Part shown: positions 1,445 through 13,039 of the stretch, piece by piece
How positions within the stretch are numbered: the first letter of the stretch is position 1
Layout: each line of letters opens with the position of its first letter
Origin: a bacterium EF100-94H03 bin56
GTDB lineage: Bacteria; Pseudomonadota; Alphaproteobacteria; SP197
Length of the DNA: 64,000 bases
Assembly (NCBI GenBank): GCA_002238685.1
Contig: MPMV01000017.1
Coordinates: 1 to 64,000, forward strand
Direction: 5' to 3'
Program-made: the position numbers and the translations under genes
The notes under the pieces: generated by a model
What the model saw: only the letters and a program-made list of their open reading frames with translations
What the model was told of the DNA's origin: nothing
The model's database searches: none

Positions 1445-4071
<2,627 letters not shown>

Positions 4072-4072
<1 letters not shown>

Positions 4073-5226
4073 TACCCTGCTCCTTTTGGTGTCTCATGCT
4101 CGCGAAGCAGCGAGCGCGAAAGAATATGACGCTGAATCTCGCTGGTGCCATCCCAGATTCGCTCGATACGGGCATCGCGCCAGAATCGCTCCACAGCGAA
4201 CTCCTTCATGAGACCCATGCCACCGAAGATCTGCACCGCATGATCCGTCACCCGACCCAGCATTTCGCTGGCATAGAGTTTCGCCATGGCGAAGTCACGG
4301 TCCGTGGCGCATCCACGCGCTTCACGGTCGGCTGCCCGCAACACCAGGAGTTCCGCCGCCTCGATTTCGGTCAGCATGTCGGCAAGCTTGAACGACGTTC
4401 CCTGGAACCTGCCGATGGTGCGGCCAAACTGGCGTCTCGTTCCGGCCCATCCGGCAGCCATGGAAAGCACCCGCCGGGCCCGGCCGACACAGTGCGCCGC
4501 GACAGTGAGCCTGGTGGCGCCCAGCCACTCGCGAGCCACGTCAAATCCCCGGTGCTCCTCGCCCAGAATGTGGCGCTGGTGGACCCGGCAGTCCGTGAAC
4601 ACCAGCTCGGCATGGTGGAAGCCTCTGTGCGAGACGCTCTCGCCCCCCGGACGCACCTCGAAGCCGGGGTCTTCCTTGTCGACAAGAAAACTGGTGATTC
4701 CCCCCTCATCGCCTGTCCTGGCAAACAGCACGACATAGTCGGCCACATCCGCATAGCTGATGAAATGCTTGGTGCCGTTGATGATGAAGTCCTCGCCCTC
4801 GCGCCGTGCCCGCGTGGTCATGGAACGCAGGTCGGAACCGGCACCGGGTTCGGTCATGGCCAGGCATTCGACACGCTCGCCGCGAATGGTGGGAAGCAGG
4901 TAGCGGGAGACCTGCCAGCCCGTGCAGGCACGCAGGATGTTTGATGGACGAGCCACCGCATACTGCAGGGCAAAGGCCGTGTGGCCGAGTTCGATCTCGC
5001 AGAGCGACACGGCAAGGGCATCGAGTCCGCCACCACCGAGTTCCGCCGGCATGTTGATGGCATAGAGCCCCTTGTCGATGGCGCGCTGGCGGATCTGCCG
5101 GATGAGGGCCTCCGGCACGTCATCGGTGCGTTCAACCTCGTCCTCGTGGGGAACGAGTTCCTCGGCGACAAACCGGCGCACCGTGTCGACGATCATCGAC
5201 TGCTCTTGCGAGAGGCCAAAATGCAT
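4072..5226 (-). CDS. Acyl-CoA dehydrogenase (CaiA/short-chain type)
   Basis: 384 residues from the ATG at 5224-5226; the downstream start fits the family N-terminus better than the longer frame beginning at 5283. Acyl-CoA dehydrogenase signatures are present: AMTEPGAGSDL, a GTKHFISYAD segment, the RRQFGRTIGRFQ block that contacts FAD, FGGMGLMKEF and a C-terminal DGTSEIQRHIL. An oddity is that the position normally holding the catalytic base in Y-E-G-T is aspartate (W-D-G-T). It would oxidise a CoA thioester to the enoyl-CoA, feeding the adjacent CaiD-like hydratase, with electrons going to ETF. It is the second gene of the minus-strand operon. Confidence 0.88.
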
Positions 5227-5286
5227 GGGAGCACCCGGACGGGACAAGGCGGAATGGATAGTGGCTTGTTCGTTCCGCCGCAAGGA

Positions 5287-7359
5287 TCAGGGCCAGTCGC
5301 CGGACAGTTCCACCACTTCCCTGCGAAACGGAGGCGAATCGATGGGCACGTTCTCATCGAGTTCCCGGGCATAGCGATGTCCGCTGTAGACGGCTGAGGC
5401 GAGAAGCCCCGGCGCCAGGCAGTCACCGATGGCGGTCACACTCGTGATGACACCCTCCCGGGGGGCATCGGCGAGCGCAACAAGGAGTTCGTCGCGGGAA
5501 TCGCGCATGGTGACGAGAACGACCGATCCGCGCTCCAGGCGACGCCGGCGGCCGGTATGGACACAGGCGACTTCAACCGTTCCGCTGCCGATGGCGGCGA
5601 CGTCGTGGCCCAGGACGAGTTCGACACCGAGCGAAAGGAGGCGCGCCTGGATGCGTCCCTGCTCCATGGTGTTGTGGGTCCAGGGAGCGACGTCGGCCGA
5701 CGGTGTGACAAGGACCGTCCTTCGACCCTGCGAGACCGCGACCTCGGCGAGCACACTGGCCATGAAGTAGTGGTCGTCATCGAAGATGACCACAGGATCG
5801 TCGAGGCGAACGCCCGCCATGACATCGTCGGGGGTCAGCACTCCGGCGGTTCCCGCACCGACGATGGGCCGGCGGTGCGATCGGCCCACACCGTCACGGC
5901 GCCAGAGAGAGCCGGTGGCGATGGCGACATGGTCGAAACCGAAACCCCTGATGTCATCGCCGGAAAGTTCGCTTCCCGGGTAGATATCCACATTGGCAAG
6001 CTTGTGCAGCTGGCCCACTCTCCAGTCGCGCACCCTCATCCAGCTGGAGAGGCCCGGAAGCCGCGTCAGCGTCCTCAGGTGGCCTCCAAGTTCGCCGCCG
6101 GCTTCGGCCAGTGTCACCTTGTAGCCACGTTCTCCGAGTGCCCGGGCCGCCTCGAGACCGGCCGGCCCGCCACCGACCACGAGAACGCTGGAATCGCTGC
6201 CCCGGGGGCCGGAATCTTCCGGGTGCCAGCCACGGCGCCACTCCTCGCCCGTGGTCGGGTTCTGGGTGCAGCGCATGGGCATGGACATGAAGTCCGCCGA
6301 AACACAGATATTGCAGCCAATACATTCGCGGATGTCGTCGATGCGCCCTTCCTCGATCTTCTTCGGAAGGAAGGGGTCGGCGATCGACGGCCGGGCGGCA
6401 CCGATGAAATCCGTGTGGCCGCGCCTGACCAGGCTCGCCATGCGGTCAACCGACGTGTAGCGGCCCACCGTCACCACCGGCTTGCCTGTCACCTTCCTGA
6501 CCCACGACGTATGGTCCTCCTGGAAACCCTCCTCGGCAAAGCGGGCCGTCTGACTGTCGTTGTCCCACTCGCTCAGGTTGACATCCCAGAGATCCGGCAG
6601 ATCGGCCAGCAGTTCGACCGCGGCACGGCCGTCACCGTCCGACGTGATTCCTTCGTCACCTTCCAGTTCATCGACCGCCAGGCGCAGGGCAACGCCCATG
6701 GTATCGCCGACTGCCTCCTTCGTGTCCTCGAGAACCTCGCGAATCAGGCGCACCCGGTTCTCGATCGATCCACCGTACTCGTCGACCCGCGTGTTGTAGC
6801 GACGCGACAGGAAGTGCTGCAACAGGCACAGGTTGTGCCCTGCATAGACATAGACAATGTCGAAACCGGCTTCCCTGGTCCGGAGAACCGCCTGGCGGTG
6901 CCAACGCCGGAAACGGGCAATGTCGGAACGGTCCATGGGACGTGCCTGGCCCGGGTCCCCGTCCTGCAGGGGAATGGCAACCGGCGCCATCGCCACCTCG
7001 CGCGACAGGCGGTTGTGTCCGGCCATGCCACCGTAGACCAGTTCGCACGCCGCCAGCGCGCCATGGCGTTTCACGCTGTCGACCATTCTTGCCATGATCG
7101 GAATGTCCTGGCGGGTCCACAGGCGGGCCTCTATGGCCGGCGTGATGTCCCCTGTATGATGGAAGTCGCACTCTTCGGTGGAAACCACCGCCCAGCCTCC
7201 CTCGGCCTTCATGCCGCGCATGGCCGCCATGGCGCTGGGATAGTGGGTTCCCATGCCGTTGCAGTGCGGCACCTGGTAGAAGCGATTGCGTGCCGTGACC
7301 GGTCCTATGGCCACCGGTTCGAACAGGATGTCGTACTGCGGATCACGGCTCATGGGCAT
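5287..7359 (-). CDS. Trimethylamine/dimethylamine dehydrogenase-like FMN/[4Fe-4S] flavoprotein
   Basis: 690 residues, close to the ~730 of trimethylamine dehydrogenase (TMADH). The N-terminal TIM barrel has RNRFYQVPHC with the cysteine (residue 33) that forms the 6-S-cysteinyl-FMN bond in TMADH. It is followed by YVYAGHN and SRRYNTRVDEYGGSIENR. A CIGCNIC...C cluster motif near residues 345-370 fits the [4Fe-4S] site. The C-terminal half is an ADP-binding Rossmann region beginning VLVVGGGPAGLEAARALGE. The enzyme oxidatively demethylates a methylated amine, passing electrons to ETF. ATGs at 7357-7359 and 7351-7353 are both served by GGAGG. It heads an operon with acyl-CoA dehydrogenase and CaiD-like genes; the true substrate is unknown. 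Confidence 0.85.
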   Translation of the reverse strand: MPMSRDPQYDILFEPVAIGPVTARNRFYQVPHCNGMGTHYPSAMAAMRGMKAEGGWAVVSTEECDFHHTGDITPAIEARLWTRQDIPIMARMVDSVKRHGALAACELVYGGMAGHNRLSREVAMAPVAIPLQDGDPGQARPMDRSDIARFRRWHRQAVLRTREAGFDIVYVYAGHNLCLLQHFLSRRYNTRVDEYGGSIENRVRLIREVLEDTKEAVGDTMGVALRLAVDELEGDEGITSDGDGRAAVELLADLPDLWDVNLSEWDNDSQTARFAEEGFQEDHTSWVRKVTGKPVVTVGRYTSVDRMASLVRRGHTDFIGAARPSIADPFLPKKIEEGRIDDIRECIGCNICVSADFMSMPMRCTQNPTTGEEWRRGWHPEDSGPRGSDSSVLVVGGGPAGLEAARALGERGYKVTLAEAGGELGGHLRTLTRLPGLSSWMRVRDWRVGQLHKLANVDIYPGSELSGDDIRGFGFDHVAIATGSLWRRDGVGRSHRRPIVGAGTAGVLTPDDVMAGVRLDDPVVIFDDDHYFMASVLAEVAVSQGRRTVLVTPSADVAPWTHNTMEQGRIQARLLSLGVELVLGHDVAAIGSGTVEVACVHTGRRRRLERGSVVLVTMRDSRDELLVALADAPREGVITSVTAIGDCLAPGLLASAVYSGHRYARELDENVPIDSPPFRREVVELSGDWP

Positions 7360-7435
7360 CTTGCCTCCGGATGCTCATTGTCGGGGCGCCGCTGACCGGG
7401 ATAGCATCCCGGAAGCAGGCAGGGGGCACGCAAGG

Positions 7436-8929
7436 GTGACATTCATTCTCGCACTCGACCAGAGCACGACGTCGAGTCGCGCCATTCTCCATGATGGCGA
7501 CCGGCGCGTCGTGTGCCAGGCGAGTGCGGAAACCAGGTCGTGTTTTCCGCGGCCCGGCTGGGTTGAACAGGATCCCGACGACATCCTGCGAACCAGCTTC
7601 GAGGTCCTGCGCAGGGTGTTGGTCAAGTCCGGCGCCACGCTGGCGTCCATCGCCGCCATGGGCATCACCAACCAGCGCGAGACCGTGGTCGTCTGGGATC
7701 GCGCCACCGGCCAGCCAATTGCCCCCGCAATTGTCTGGCAGGATCGCAGAACCTCCGGCATGTGCCGCCGTCTTGCCGCCGAAGGCCACACCGCCATGAT
7801 TGCCGAGCGCACGGGCCTGCTGCCGGATCCCTATTTCTCGGGCACCAAGATCGCCTGGATTCTCGACCAAGTCGAAGGCGCCCGGGAACGCTCCGGACGC
7901 GGTGAACTGTTGGCGGGCACCATTGACAGTTTTGTGCTGTGGCACCTGACCGGTGGAGAGGTCCACGCCACCGACGCCACCAATGCCTCGCGCACCATGC
8001 TCTACAACATCCGTGAAGGGTGCTGGGATGACGATCTCTGCCGCCTTCTCGGGGTGCCGCGGTCCATGCTCGCGGACGTGCGGGACTGTGCCGACGACTA
8101 CGGCACCTCGGTGATCGGGAACATCCCCATTCGCGGAGTGGCGGGCGATCAGCAGGCGGCCGCCATTGGTCAGGCCTGTTTCCGGCCGGGGATGATGAAG
8201 GTGACCTGCGGCACCGGTTGCTTTGCCCTTCTCAACATCGGAAGCGAGCCGGTGATTTCGCAACGGCGGCTGTTGACGACCGTCGCATGGCAGCTCGCTG
8301 GCGAACGCTGCTATGCACTGGAAGGGTCGATCTTCAATGCCGGTACCGTCGTGCAATGGCTGCGCGATGGCCTCGATGTCATTCGCGATGCCGGTGATAC
8401 CCCGGCACTCGCCGAAGCTGCCGACCCGCTTCACACGCCTTACCTGGTACCGGCGTTTACCGGCCTCGGCGCTCCATGGTGGGACGCCGAATGCCGCGGC
8501 GCCATCCATGGACTCACCCGGGCGAGCGGCAAGGCCGAACTGGTGCGCGCCGCTCTCGAGAGTCTTGCCTATCAGGTGCGCGATCTCCTCGGCGCCATGC
8601 TCGATGACCAGACATCGGCGGGCGACCGCCCCATCGTCCGGGTCGATGGCGGGATGAGCGCCAACGACTTCGCCATGCAGTTTCTTGCCGATATCCTCGA
8701 CATGCCGGTCGACCGGATGGCAAACGTCGAGGCGACCGCACTCGGCGTCGCCTGGCTTTCCGGACACCACGCCGGCGTGTGGCCGGACATGGACAGTTTC
8801 GCCGGCTCCTGGCAGGGCGACAGGCGTTTCACACCGGCCATGGAGCGCGCCGAGGCCGACAGGCGTTACCAGGGCTGGCAGGATGCCGTGCGCCGCACGC
8901 TCGTAAGGAACGAGGGAGCAATGACATGA
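7436..8929 (+). CDS. glpK: Glycerol kinase
   Basis: 497 residues, the usual length for GlpK. GTG at 7436-7438 is chosen because the protein then starts TFILALDQSTTSSRA, the phosphate-1 motif of the FGGY family; the longer upstream frame overlaps the divergent TMADH-like gene. Other GlpK features are GITNQRETVVVWD, AIVWQDRRTS, DATNASRTMLYNI and GVAGDQQAAAIGQ, then KVTCGTGCFALLN and a C-terminal RVDGGMSANDFAMQ. It phosphorylates glycerol to glycerol 3-phosphate in the cytoplasm. The stop overlaps the next ATG (ATGA), pairing it with the M20 peptidase rather than with glpF or glpD. Confidence 0.95.
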   Translation: MTFILALDQSTTSSRAILHDGDRRVVCQASAETRSCFPRPGWVEQDPDDILRTSFEVLRRVLVKSGATLASIAAMGITNQRETVVVWDRATGQPIAPAIVWQDRRTSGMCRRLAAEGHTAMIAERTGLLPDPYFSGTKIAWILDQVEGARERSGRGELLAGTIDSFVLWHLTGGEVHATDATNASRTMLYNIREGCWDDDLCRLLGVPRSMLADVRDCADDYGTSVIGNIPIRGVAGDQQAAAIGQACFRPGMMKVTCGTGCFALLNIGSEPVISQRRLLTTVAWQLAGERCYALEGSIFNAGTVVQWLRDGLDVIRDAGDTPALAEAADPLHTPYLVPAFTGLGAPWWDAECRGAIHGLTRASGKAELVRAALESLAYQVRDLLGAMLDDQTSAGDRPIVRVDGGMSANDFAMQFLADILDMPVDRMANVEATALGVAWLSGHHAGVWPDMDSFAGSWQGDRRFTPAMERAEADRRYQGWQDAVRRTLVRNEGAMT

Positions 8930-10200
8930 TCGACGAGGACACAGGCAAGCGCCTCGACGCAGCCGTCGAGGCGGGCTTTGACGAGCAGGTCGCCTTTACC
9001 GGCGATCTCGTCCGCCTGCCCTCGCTGAGGGGGCAGGAGGCGACCGCCCAGGACTTCATCGCGCGCGCCCTGGCAGCACGGGGATTCGCCGTTGATCGAT
9101 GGCAGATCAGGAACGAGGACATTCGCGACCTGCCGGGATATTCGCCCAAACTGGACGGCTATGACGACGCCTGGGTCAGCGTGGGCACGCTGCGCAGCAG
9201 CGCGCCCGGAGGCCGCTCGCTGATCATCAACGGTCATATCGATGTCGTGCCCGAAGGGCCGCACGACATGTGGTCGACACCCCCGTTCGAACCCGTGGTC
9301 AAGGACGGCTGGATGCACGGGCGCGGCGCCGGCGACATGAAGGCAGGCTGGGTCTGCGGGCTCTTTGCTCTCGATGCCATCAGGCGCGCCGGCTTCCGTC
9401 CGGCATCGGACATCACCATCGAGGCCGTGATCGAGGAGGAGTGCACGGGCAACGGGGCGCTTGCCTGTCGCCAACGCGGCTACCACGCCGATGCCGCACT
9501 CATCCCCGAACCCATGGGCCATGGACTCTTGCGCTCACAGGTCGGCGTCATGTGGTTCCAGTGCCACGTGCGCGGACACCCTGTTCACGTCTCTCGTGCC
9601 GGCAGCGGCGCCAATGCCATCGAGGCTGCCTGGCGCCTTGTCGGCGCCCTCCACACGCTTGAGGAGCGATGGAACGCCGCTGGTCACGAACGCTATGCCG
9701 GCATGACTCACCCGCTCAATTTCAATGTCGGCCGCATCGAAGGTGGAGACTGGGCGTCGAGTGTCCCGGCCTGGTGCCGCTTTGACATGAGAGTGGGCGT
9801 GTTTCCCGGAACCGATCTCGCGCGGGCCCGGGGCGACATCGAGGAGTGCATCGCCATGGCGGCCGGCAGTGACGCCTTCCTTGCCAACAACCCGCCGCAA
9901 GTCGTCTGGGACGGCTTCCAGGCCGAGGGGTACGTTCTTGAAGAGGGAAGCGATGCGGAGGCCGTGATTGCCGAAAGCCACCGGGACGTCTTTGGCGAAG
10001 AGCTCCAGTCACACGCGCTCACGGGAACCACGGACGCCCGGTTCTTCGGTCTCTATGCCGGTATCCCCGCACTGGTCTACGGCCCGCTTGCAGAGAACAT
10101 TCACGGCTTCGACGAACGGGTCAATCTCGATTCCTGCCGCCAGGTCACCCGCGCAATCGCCCGCTTCATCGCCGACTGGTGCGGCCTTGAATCCCTTTGA
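8926..10200 (+). CDS. M20-family metallopeptidase/deacylase (ArgE/DapE-like)
   Basis: 424 residues, starting in the ATGA overlap with glpK. Zinc-peptidase motifs are in order: INGHIDVVPEGP with the first metal histidine, RGAGDMKAG with the bridging aspartate, EEECTGNGAL with the general-base glutamate, and a late NIHGFDERV histidine. The family includes acetylornithine deacetylase, succinyl-diaminopimelate desuccinylase and assorted amidases. A dimerisation domain lies between residues about 200 and 310. Substrate cannot be told; coupling to glycerol kinase is unusual. A ~104-bp copy of its 3' part recurs at 11737-11840. Confidence 0.85.
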   Translation: MIDEDTGKRLDAAVEAGFDEQVAFTGDLVRLPSLRGQEATAQDFIARALAARGFAVDRWQIRNEDIRDLPGYSPKLDGYDDAWVSVGTLRSSAPGGRSLIINGHIDVVPEGPHDMWSTPPFEPVVKDGWMHGRGAGDMKAGWVCGLFALDAIRRAGFRPASDITIEAVIEEECTGNGALACRQRGYHADAALIPEPMGHGLLRSQVGVMWFQCHVRGHPVHVSRAGSGANAIEAAWRLVGALHTLEERWNAAGHERYAGMTHPLNFNVGRIEGGDWASSVPAWCRFDMRVGVFPGTDLARARGDIEECIAMAAGSDAFLANNPPQVVWDGFQAEGYVLEEGSDAEAVIAESHRDVFGEELQSHALTGTTDARFFGLYAGIPALVYGPLAENIHGFDERVNLDSCRQVTRAIARFIADWCGLESL

Positions 10201-10699
10201 GCCGGCCAGTCAGGACACCTGCAATCGGTAACCTCTTCCGCCCGGGCGTCGTTTGTATCCCGCGAGATGCGGCTTGTGTCCGCGAACGTTCACGTGAACG
10301 CAGTTCACAGTTCGCCCCCGGGCACGGTACGCCGCGCACAAGTGTCATGGCCGGAACGTCGCTTGCCAGGGTTGTCCAACGCGCAGGTGCAGGAAGGTCG
10401 TTTCCGCTGTGACGAACGGATCGCGCATGTCGTCACCGCCGGGTGAGCCGGCACGATCACACTGAACGAAACGGCAGGCAAGGCAGAACGCGCCAGGTCC
10501 TGGATGCCCTTCGGTCCTTTCCTGTCTCGAAGACGTCACGCTGCACGAGGCCTGATTTCCTGATCGACATTGAACGAAAGCTCCTGCCTGGCTGGTTCCG
10601 CAGCCCATCCGGCGCGTTGCTCAATAGTCGCGTGGAAGGTATCCGGGCGCACGAGCGCCTCGAGAGAACGTCTTCCGGAAAACACCCCGCCACAGCGGT
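10201..10699. other. Intergenic region, no gene recognised
   Basis: About 500 bases between the convergent peptidase and esterase genes. Short open frames occur on both strands, but none has a family signature or a convincing ribosome-binding site. No terminator with a T-tract was seen. Confidence 0.4.
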
Positions 10700-11736: not shown

Positions 11737-11840
11737 CTGCCGGCATCCCCGCACTGGTTTGCGGTCCGCTTGCCGAGAACATTCACGGCTTCGACGAGAG
11801 GGTCAATCTCGATTCGTGTCGCCAGGTCACCCGCGCAATC
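11737..11840 (+). pseudogene. Duplicated 3' fragment of the M20 peptidase gene
   Basis: About 104 bases here are nearly identical to 10057-10160 inside the M20 peptidase gene, in the same orientation. They encode a recognisable GIPALV-CGPLAENIHGFDERV-NLDSCRQVTRAIG peptide, with mostly silent differences. Nothing upstream of it resembles the rest of the peptidase. It is a partial duplication now separated from its parent by the esterase gene. Confidence 0.8.
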
Positions 11841-11860
11841 GGAGGAAACGGCCGCGCAAA

Positions 11861-12115
11861 GTGCCGGACCGCTGCGCCGTTGCGGGTTGCGGGAATTGTC
11901 CGACGGTTGGCGCTCATGTGCGGTTTGTCGATGAAGATGGACGACATACCACCGAGTACGGGCGAGGAATTCATGTTCATCCGTTTTGCAATCCCTGCAA
12001 CGCGAAAGGACCCAACCTCTTGGAAGAGGGGGCTCGGGCAAGAGGGAATGATCGCCTGTCGATGGCCAGCACACAGCGCACTTGCAATCCTCCGGCAGGT
12101 GGCCCCATTGAATGA
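11861..12115 (+). CDS. Small four-cysteine zinc-finger/HNH-like protein of unknown function
   Basis: 84 residues from the GTG at 11861, with GGAGGA about 14 bases upstream; the start is uncertain. The protein has C-x4-C near the start, then a T-V-G-A-H-V block, then H-P-F-C-x2-C-N and a late T-C. This spacing suggests a treble-clef or HNH-like zinc site. I recognise the overall pattern (two cysteines, GAHV, CxxCN, terminal TC) from uncharacterised small bacterial proteins, but no function. Its TGA overlaps the ATG of the next gene (ATGA), so the two are probably co-translated. Confidence 0.5.
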   Translation: MPDRCAVAGCGNCPTVGAHVRFVDEDGRHTTEYGRGIHVHPFCNPCNAKGPNLLEEGARARGNDRLSMASTQRTCNPPAGGPIE

Positions 12116-12903
12116 CGGCCGGGACAGGAAAAATGTCGGACCGATTCCTGCCGGGAATTCCCGGCGCACTGGTCGAGGCGGCGTTCCGGGCCGCGCCGGG
12201 TGACGAAATCGCGAGCGGCAAGTTCGACAGTCCGGCATCGTCGGCCGCCCTCGCTGCCAACGCTCTCGGCTTTTTCCTGAAACGGGCGCGGGACTTGCCG
12301 CCGCTGCCGGGCTGCGAAGGGGAACTCTGGCCCGCCCGGGCGCTGACGCTTGAGACGACGATCCGTTTTCCCTGGCGGGGCGGACAACACCCGGTGCTGG
12401 ACCGCCTCGTCGTAACGTCCTCCGCACTCATCGGAATCGAATCCAAGCGATACGAACCGTTTCGGGTCAAGGGAACATCCTCGCTCAGCGAGGCGTATTG
12501 GCGGCCCTGTCGGGGAGAATACATGAAGGGCTACGAAGGCGTCCGGGATGCACTAAGGGATGACAGGCGCTCCTATCTCCGGCTCAACGCCGCTCAACTG
12601 TTCAAGCACGCTTTCGCCTTGCGGACGGATGTCCACCGTAACGGACCGCAGGCGGGACTACGGCCGATCCTCCTCTATCTCTATGCCGAACCGGAGGTAT
12701 GGCCGACTGGCGGGACGCCGGTGGATGAAGGCGCCATAGCGCGGCACCGACTCGAGATCGAGACCTTCGCCTCCGCCGTCGCCGGTGACGAAGTGGCGTT
12801 CATCGCCTGCCCATACAAGACCCTGCTCGGAAGCTGGACCTGCAGCGAAGACGCCGGCATCCGCGCTCACGCACGGTCGGTCCTTGAGCGCTATGCGCCC
12901 TGA
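12112..12903 (+). CDS. Hypothetical protein with possible PD-(D/E)XK nuclease core
   Basis: 263 residues from the ATG overlapping the zinc-finger gene; an internal ATG at 12133 is an alternative. I do not recognise a named family. Residues about 94-112 read P-V-L-D-R-L-V-V then I-G-I-E-S-K: an aspartate (97) followed 13 residues later by E-x-K (110/112) after a hydrophobic strand, which is the geometry of PD-(D/E)XK nucleases. An upstream glutamate near residue 22 could complete the site. There is no signal peptide or membrane segment. Coupling to an HNH-like small protein supports a nucleic-acid role, but this is inference. Confidence 0.55.
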   Translation: MTAGTGKMSDRFLPGIPGALVEAAFRAAPGDEIASGKFDSPASSAALAANALGFFLKRARDLPPLPGCEGELWPARALTLETTIRFPWRGGQHPVLDRLVVTSSALIGIESKRYEPFRVKGTSSLSEAYWRPCRGEYMKGYEGVRDALRDDRRSYLRLNAAQLFKHAFALRTDVHRNGPQAGLRPILLYLYAEPEVWPTGGTPVDEGAIARHRLEIETFASAVAGDEVAFIACPYKTLLGSWTCSEDAGIRAHARSVLERYAP

Positions 12904-13039
12904 GCCGCACGGCCTGCTGTCAGCCGCCGACGGCGGACACGTCGCGGAGGACAAATTCGGTCTCGTCCGGATTGCCCGGACGTGGGCACGTGGGACCGGG
13001 CACCCAGACACACACCCCGCCAATCTTGGGAAGGCCGGG

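Follow-up and report, generated by a model that had tools for sequence, protein, structure and literature searches.

A solitary REase-ARP-type PD-(D/E)XK nuclease gene preceded by a probable relic of a small zinc-protein gene in an alphaproteobacterial genome

The window analyzed here, a 64,000-nucleotide stretch of contig C67 from a genome of 4.5 Mb, encodes a 263-aa protein that is the product of a genuine, intact gene of the REase-ARP family. Our preferred explanation, to which we assign a probability of about 0.72, is that a solitary REase-ARP-type PD-(D/E)XK nuclease, probably a defence effector, stands behind the relic of a small gene and that the cassette came from outside the genome. 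The contribution of the window itself is modest, consisting of a corrected start codon and a revised status for the small frame in a member of a known family. The relatives of the nuclease occur in three settings (on their own, within McrBC operons, or within an ADP-ribosylglycohydrolase operon), and named culturable hosts (Rhodobacter, Erythrobacter, and Brevundimonas) allow the role of REase-ARP to be tested.

Family, fold, and start of the nuclease

One scan of species genomes retrieved 67 relatives of the 263-aa protein (41 to 75% identity), nearly all of them with complete frames. Most come from Rhodobacterales, Sphingomonadales, and Caulobacterales; a few belong to gamma- and deltaproteobacterial MAGs. 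The invariant columns in an alignment of 53 members included G30, E32, K37, D97, E110, S111, K112, R113, E115, and P116. Thus, the three residues that a preliminary description of this DNA had picked out when proposing a PD-(D/E)XK nuclease (D97, E110, and K112) are invariant in every aligned member. Pfam PF22558 (REase-ARP) was matched by 50 of the 53 (best E value = 6.1e-12), although the window protein alone scored 25.9 bits (E value = 9.4e-6), just under the Pfam cut-off of 27. A sequence search of solved structures returned no match for the nuclease or for the small frame that precedes it.

We also predicted the structure of the nuclease, as had been proposed. AlphaFold2 run on the 53-member alignment gave a model with a pLDDT of 93.8 and a pTM of 0.92. 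Foldseek alone returned weak PDB matches only, led by McrC (E value = 0.017), and a viral structure library gave a single weak match (E value = 3.4e-4). When the rows were realigned with VIA-align, almost all were PD-(D/E)XK nucleases, among them Nt.BspD6I (Z = 7.6, the best value), a P. abyssi repair nuclease (6.8), AF1548 (6.6), Can2 (6.5), FokI (6.1), McrC (6.1), EcoT38I (6.0), and Shedu (5.8); these values are middling, the best of them falling in the range that the tool terms common. NucS/EndoMS-type repair nucleases were among the structural neighbours. Because the structural rows agree and the D...ExK strand is invariant, we assign the protein to the PD-(D/E)XK fold. The nuclease would hold Mg2+ via E32, D97, and E110, use K112 as its catalytic lysine, and cut nucleic acid; its most likely function would be that of a defence effector acting on phage or plasmid DNA.

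The gene has been kept under purifying selection in the family, with dN/dS values of 0.11 to 0.24 against four relatives (0.24 against the nearest). At three sites that are nearly invariant in the family, the window copy carries another residue (F52L, W134R, and D159N; the mean is 1.6 such departures per sequence), and these substitutions could reduce its activity.

Homologues open with M-x-DxFLPGVP, and the window sequence at this place reads MTAGTGKMSDRFLPGIPG. Translation probably begins at ATG 12133, behind AGGA, and not at ATG 12112, since the opening of the relatives falls there and the AGGA lies in a stretch that is common to the relative L005. With this start, the nuclease is a 256-aa protein that begins 17 bases past the small-frame stop. 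The two frames described earlier as overlapping by ATGA are both present as open frames (Table 1); if homologues are a guide to the real start, the genes do not overlap and the ATGA loses its meaning.

Table 1. Coordinates of the frames, motifs, and repeats at the nuclease locus (window positions)
Feature	Position	Strand	Details
M20 peptidase gene tail, source-like repeat copy	10056-10159	+	blastn self-match, 91% over 104 bp; Peptidase_M20
Duplication scar, second copy of M20 peptidase tail	11738-11841	+	91% to 10056-10159
Probable remnant of a gene for a small HNH-like zinc protein, truncated at the 5' end	11840-12115	+	profile E value = 7.4e-5; dN/dS = 0.88
Small frame	11861-12115	+	GTG start; 84 aa; six Cys; GAHV and CNPCN
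Nuclease open frame	12112-12903	+	263 aa; ATGA overlap with small frame
AGGA, probable ribosome-binding site of nuclease gene	12126-12129	+	stretch common to L005
REase-ARP-type PD-(D/E)XK nuclease gene	12133-12903	+	probable start ATG 12133; open from 12112
Invariant E32 codon, candidate first acidic active-site residue	12205-12207	+	alignment; role inferred
Invariant D97 codon	12400-12402	+	alignment
E110-S111-K112 codons (ExK motif), all invariant	12439-12447	+	alignment
3' end of block common to decayed C3 copy	12904-12977	+	blastn, 89% over 12541-12977

The small frame and the origin of the cassette

We read the 84-residue frame as most likely what is left, after truncation at the 5' end, of a separate gene for a small HNH-like zinc protein. 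Natural small proteins of like layout are encoded on plasmid pBbsI (L101, member at 1381-1677), a Vibrio plasmid (L102), a phage contig (L103), and a viral contig (L105). This family was located with a composed 60-aa search probe, which itself counts as no evidence; the profile was built from the four natural sequences, the last of them found through the others, and left the window frame out. Scored against this profile, the window frame ranked first of 1,094 frames (E value = 7.4e-5), and the corresponding frame of a second copy of the block, on contig C3, ranked second (E value = 0.0097). The third best, at a weak E value of 0.4, was NCRSHLKHW, which resembles CxCGSWKxHW and lies in another frame just upstream on C3. 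The natural members combine an N-terminal CxCGSWKxHW with a C-terminal C-C-GAHV-CxxCN. With WP_310774707.1, a hypothetical protein of plasmid pBbsI, the window frame shares C-x4-C-x-N-x-PT-x-GAHV ... P-x-C-x-x-CN ... TC, but it lacks the N-terminal motif and is unconstrained, and no Pfam family covers it. On the viral contig, the small GAHV zinc protein is followed by a ThsB-type TIR gene and a gene for an unknown 157-aa protein (L105 2974-4710).

A search for HNH family matches to the small frame in Pfam, NCBIfam, PADLOC, and PHROGs gave none, and the three GAHV-family members scanned had no Pfam match above the cut-off. What survives of the HNH-like zinc protein proposed in the preliminary description is its ancestry, as suggested by the profile, and not membership of a curated HNH family. 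A match to zf-Paramyx-P was under the cut-off and was attributed to chance, as were two weak plasmid matches (H5 and H7), which fell in other frames or genes. We found no small-frame homologue in nine further genomes from the genus, six from elsewhere in the family, or 385 from the class, and none in plasmid, phage, or viral-contig searches made with the window frame; a degenerate motif scan of 398 genomes of the phylum matched the window only. The joint occurrence of the pair was also checked, as proposed, and a small-frame homologue stood beside the nuclease at none of the relatives' loci (0 of 67). Given these searches, we rejected the small frame as a conserved gene. It forms the last part of an open frame of 463 aa that lies antisense to the esterase gene, and such openness is unremarkable in DNA of 65% GC.

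The second copy of the block (contig C3, 32596-33147; L004 6523-7272, minus strand) is shorter and decayed: in it, the small relic is fused in frame to the C-terminal portion of the nuclease, and the fusion frame offers no ATG, GTG, or TTG start ahead of the small part. Between the two copies, the small frame shows 38 differences over 193 bases, spread evenly across codon positions, and its dN/dS is 0.88 in its own frame, with values of 0.90 and 0.79 for the two other frames, while the nuclease part of the same copies has a dN/dS of 0.40 in frame. The small frame thus appears to be without coding constraint, a reading that relies on this one second copy, itself decayed. Cysteine and histidine positions are largely kept between the small segments, with C46 replaced by H. 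The single-sequence fold confidence of the small frame is 39.

The similarity to the C3 block spans positions 11840 to 12977 of the window and begins where the repeated M20 peptidase gene tail ends; the GTG at 11861 lies about 20 bp past this 104-bp duplicated tail. The duplication scar reported earlier is real and is a copy of the peptidase gene tail (Table 1). The duplicated tail seems to have replaced the 5' end of the small gene: recombination would have cut the small HNH-like gene and joined it to the tail copy. On our reading of the sequences, the window copy would have lost its 5' end, and the C3 copy would have undergone a frame shift and a deletion reaching into the nuclease gene.

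In the closest sister species (L127), whose gene names were assigned by reading, the M20, esterase, and MOSC genes are all present. There, M20 and the esterase are separated by some 10 kb of sugar-transporter and PfkB-type genes that are missing at 10202-10690 of the window, and serine-hydrolase and HAD genes occupy the position of the nuclease. The presence of other genes at this site indicates that, in the present lineage, the nuclease block has replaced other sequence or been inserted. The nuclease cassette was absent from the nine other genus genomes and the six rest-of-family genomes searched, and since the sister species also carries other genes in its place, the cassette would have entered the genome from outside.

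Genomic settings of the nuclease and its relatives

The window nuclease has ordinary neighbours, namely an FMN oxidoreductase, an FGGY kinase, the M20 peptidase, the esterase, and a MOSC protein, with an apparent sugar ABC transporter (by reading) beyond them. The part of the window that was scanned contains no defence island; we found no McrB or McrC neighbour and, among the immediate neighbours scanned, no cognate methyltransferase of a Type II restriction-modification system. An operon combining an ADP-ribosylglycohydrolase, a phosphatase, and an ADP-ribose-sensing regulator was also absent around the gene, so we file the window copy under the protein family only and not under a conflict system. 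PF22558, to judge by its name, traces to the REase of the ADP-ribosylglycohydrolase-centred conflict systems. We found no experimental test of the REase-ARP nuclease family in the literature, where it is predicted from sequence only.

Most relatives are likewise solitary and directly behind unrelated genes: an SDR gene (with leuA on the opposite side), a trigger-factor gene, or an AddA-like gene, the last assigned by reading in L056 and L065. A scan of 90 neighbours gave 10 leuA, 9 SDR, and 7 trigger-factor proteins; these counts are approximate, as the relatives' genes were called with a home-made caller that made some strand errors (e.g., in L005). A minority of relatives occupy defence settings. 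In three loci (L049, L050, and L061, about 2400-9100; Novosphingobium and Erythrobacter), the nuclease is flanked by an McrB-type AAA gene on one side and mcrC (PF10117 in L061, E value = 1.7e-69) on the other, and a WYL regulator comes after them; L050 also has an MTES_1575 nuclease-helicase upstream. These loci are possibly McrBC type IV restriction systems with an extra nuclease; the window protein differs in standing apart from McrB and McrC and in matching PF22558, not PF10117.

At another locus (L054, 821-6726), an operon encodes NAMPT, an NMN adenylyltransferase-Nudix protein, an Exo_endo_phos protein, a phosphatase-ADP-ribosylglycohydrolase, and then the REase-ARP nuclease, with an NrtR-type regulator nearby. 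It resembles the ADP-ribosylglycohydrolase-centred conflict systems of Iyer et al. 2022 (PMC9503650) and would fit that published prediction as an instance of such a system, whereas the window copy stands alone. A few other relatives have neighbours that match the PADLOC models mad3, mad8, AriA, MzaE, and AbiU, and a Qipengyuania plasmid relative lies near Abi, HEPN, and HipA genes. The defence association proposed in the preliminary description is thus seen in relatives (the McrBC and ADP-ribosylglycohydrolase operons) but not in the window.

Weighing of the explanations

The preliminary description had read the two frames as a coupled two-component system, which we do not retain: none of the 67 relatives is paired, the small frame is truncated and unconstrained, and the ATGA start is doubtful. 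The lack of a conserved pair is also an outcome that the description itself had named as refuting its proposal. Under this idea, a small zinc protein, translated from GTG 11861, would regulate, target, or restrain the nuclease. The order of the two segments, small directly before nuclease in both copies in this genome, suits such a module, as do the retained cysteine and histidine positions (C46 to H aside) and the natural relative found before a ThsB-like TIR gene. These points are set against the solitary state of the other nuclease genes, the missing 5' end, the low fold confidence, and a dN/dS that carries a frame signal in the nuclease part and none in the small part, and we hold a working pair to be very unlikely. 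We regard as similarly speculative, and improbable, the broader idea that GAHV zinc proteins serve unrelated antiviral effectors as mobile accessory subunits, with the window preserving a trace of a REase-ARP module that is intact elsewhere.

For the nuclease itself, we consider a role against foreign DNA reasonably likely, judging from the settings of its relatives. The settings of many relatives (SDR/leuA, trigger factor, and AddA) suit a cellular role no less than defence, and a housekeeping nuclease for DNA repair or maintenance would account for the recurrent, stable places in Rhodobacterales, for the AddA-like genes upstream, and for the NucS/EndoMS-type structural neighbours. Yet only 9 of 372 class genomes carry the nuclease, some of them as fragments or with a stop, and it is missing from every other sampled genome of the same genus or family; truncation or interruption of the gene is common, and relatives sit in McrBC and ADP-ribosylglycohydrolase operons. 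Such gain and loss is more in keeping with a conflict gene than with a core repair gene, and we think a repair function unlikely. A gene already decaying and no longer working in this genome, as on contig C3, would agree with the three departures from nearly invariant sites, the disturbed neighbourhood, and the deleted fusion that is its sister copy; it is an improbable reading of a frame that is open over its full length, with all catalytic residues intact and a dN/dS of 0.24 to the nearest relative. A defence nuclease standing alone behind a small-gene relic is thus the reading that we prefer.

Truncated or interrupted REase-ARP copies were also seen in other alphaproteobacteria (L134, L135, and L133), two of them being C-terminal only. 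One truncated copy starts at profile position 137, and the C3 remnant starts at position 136.
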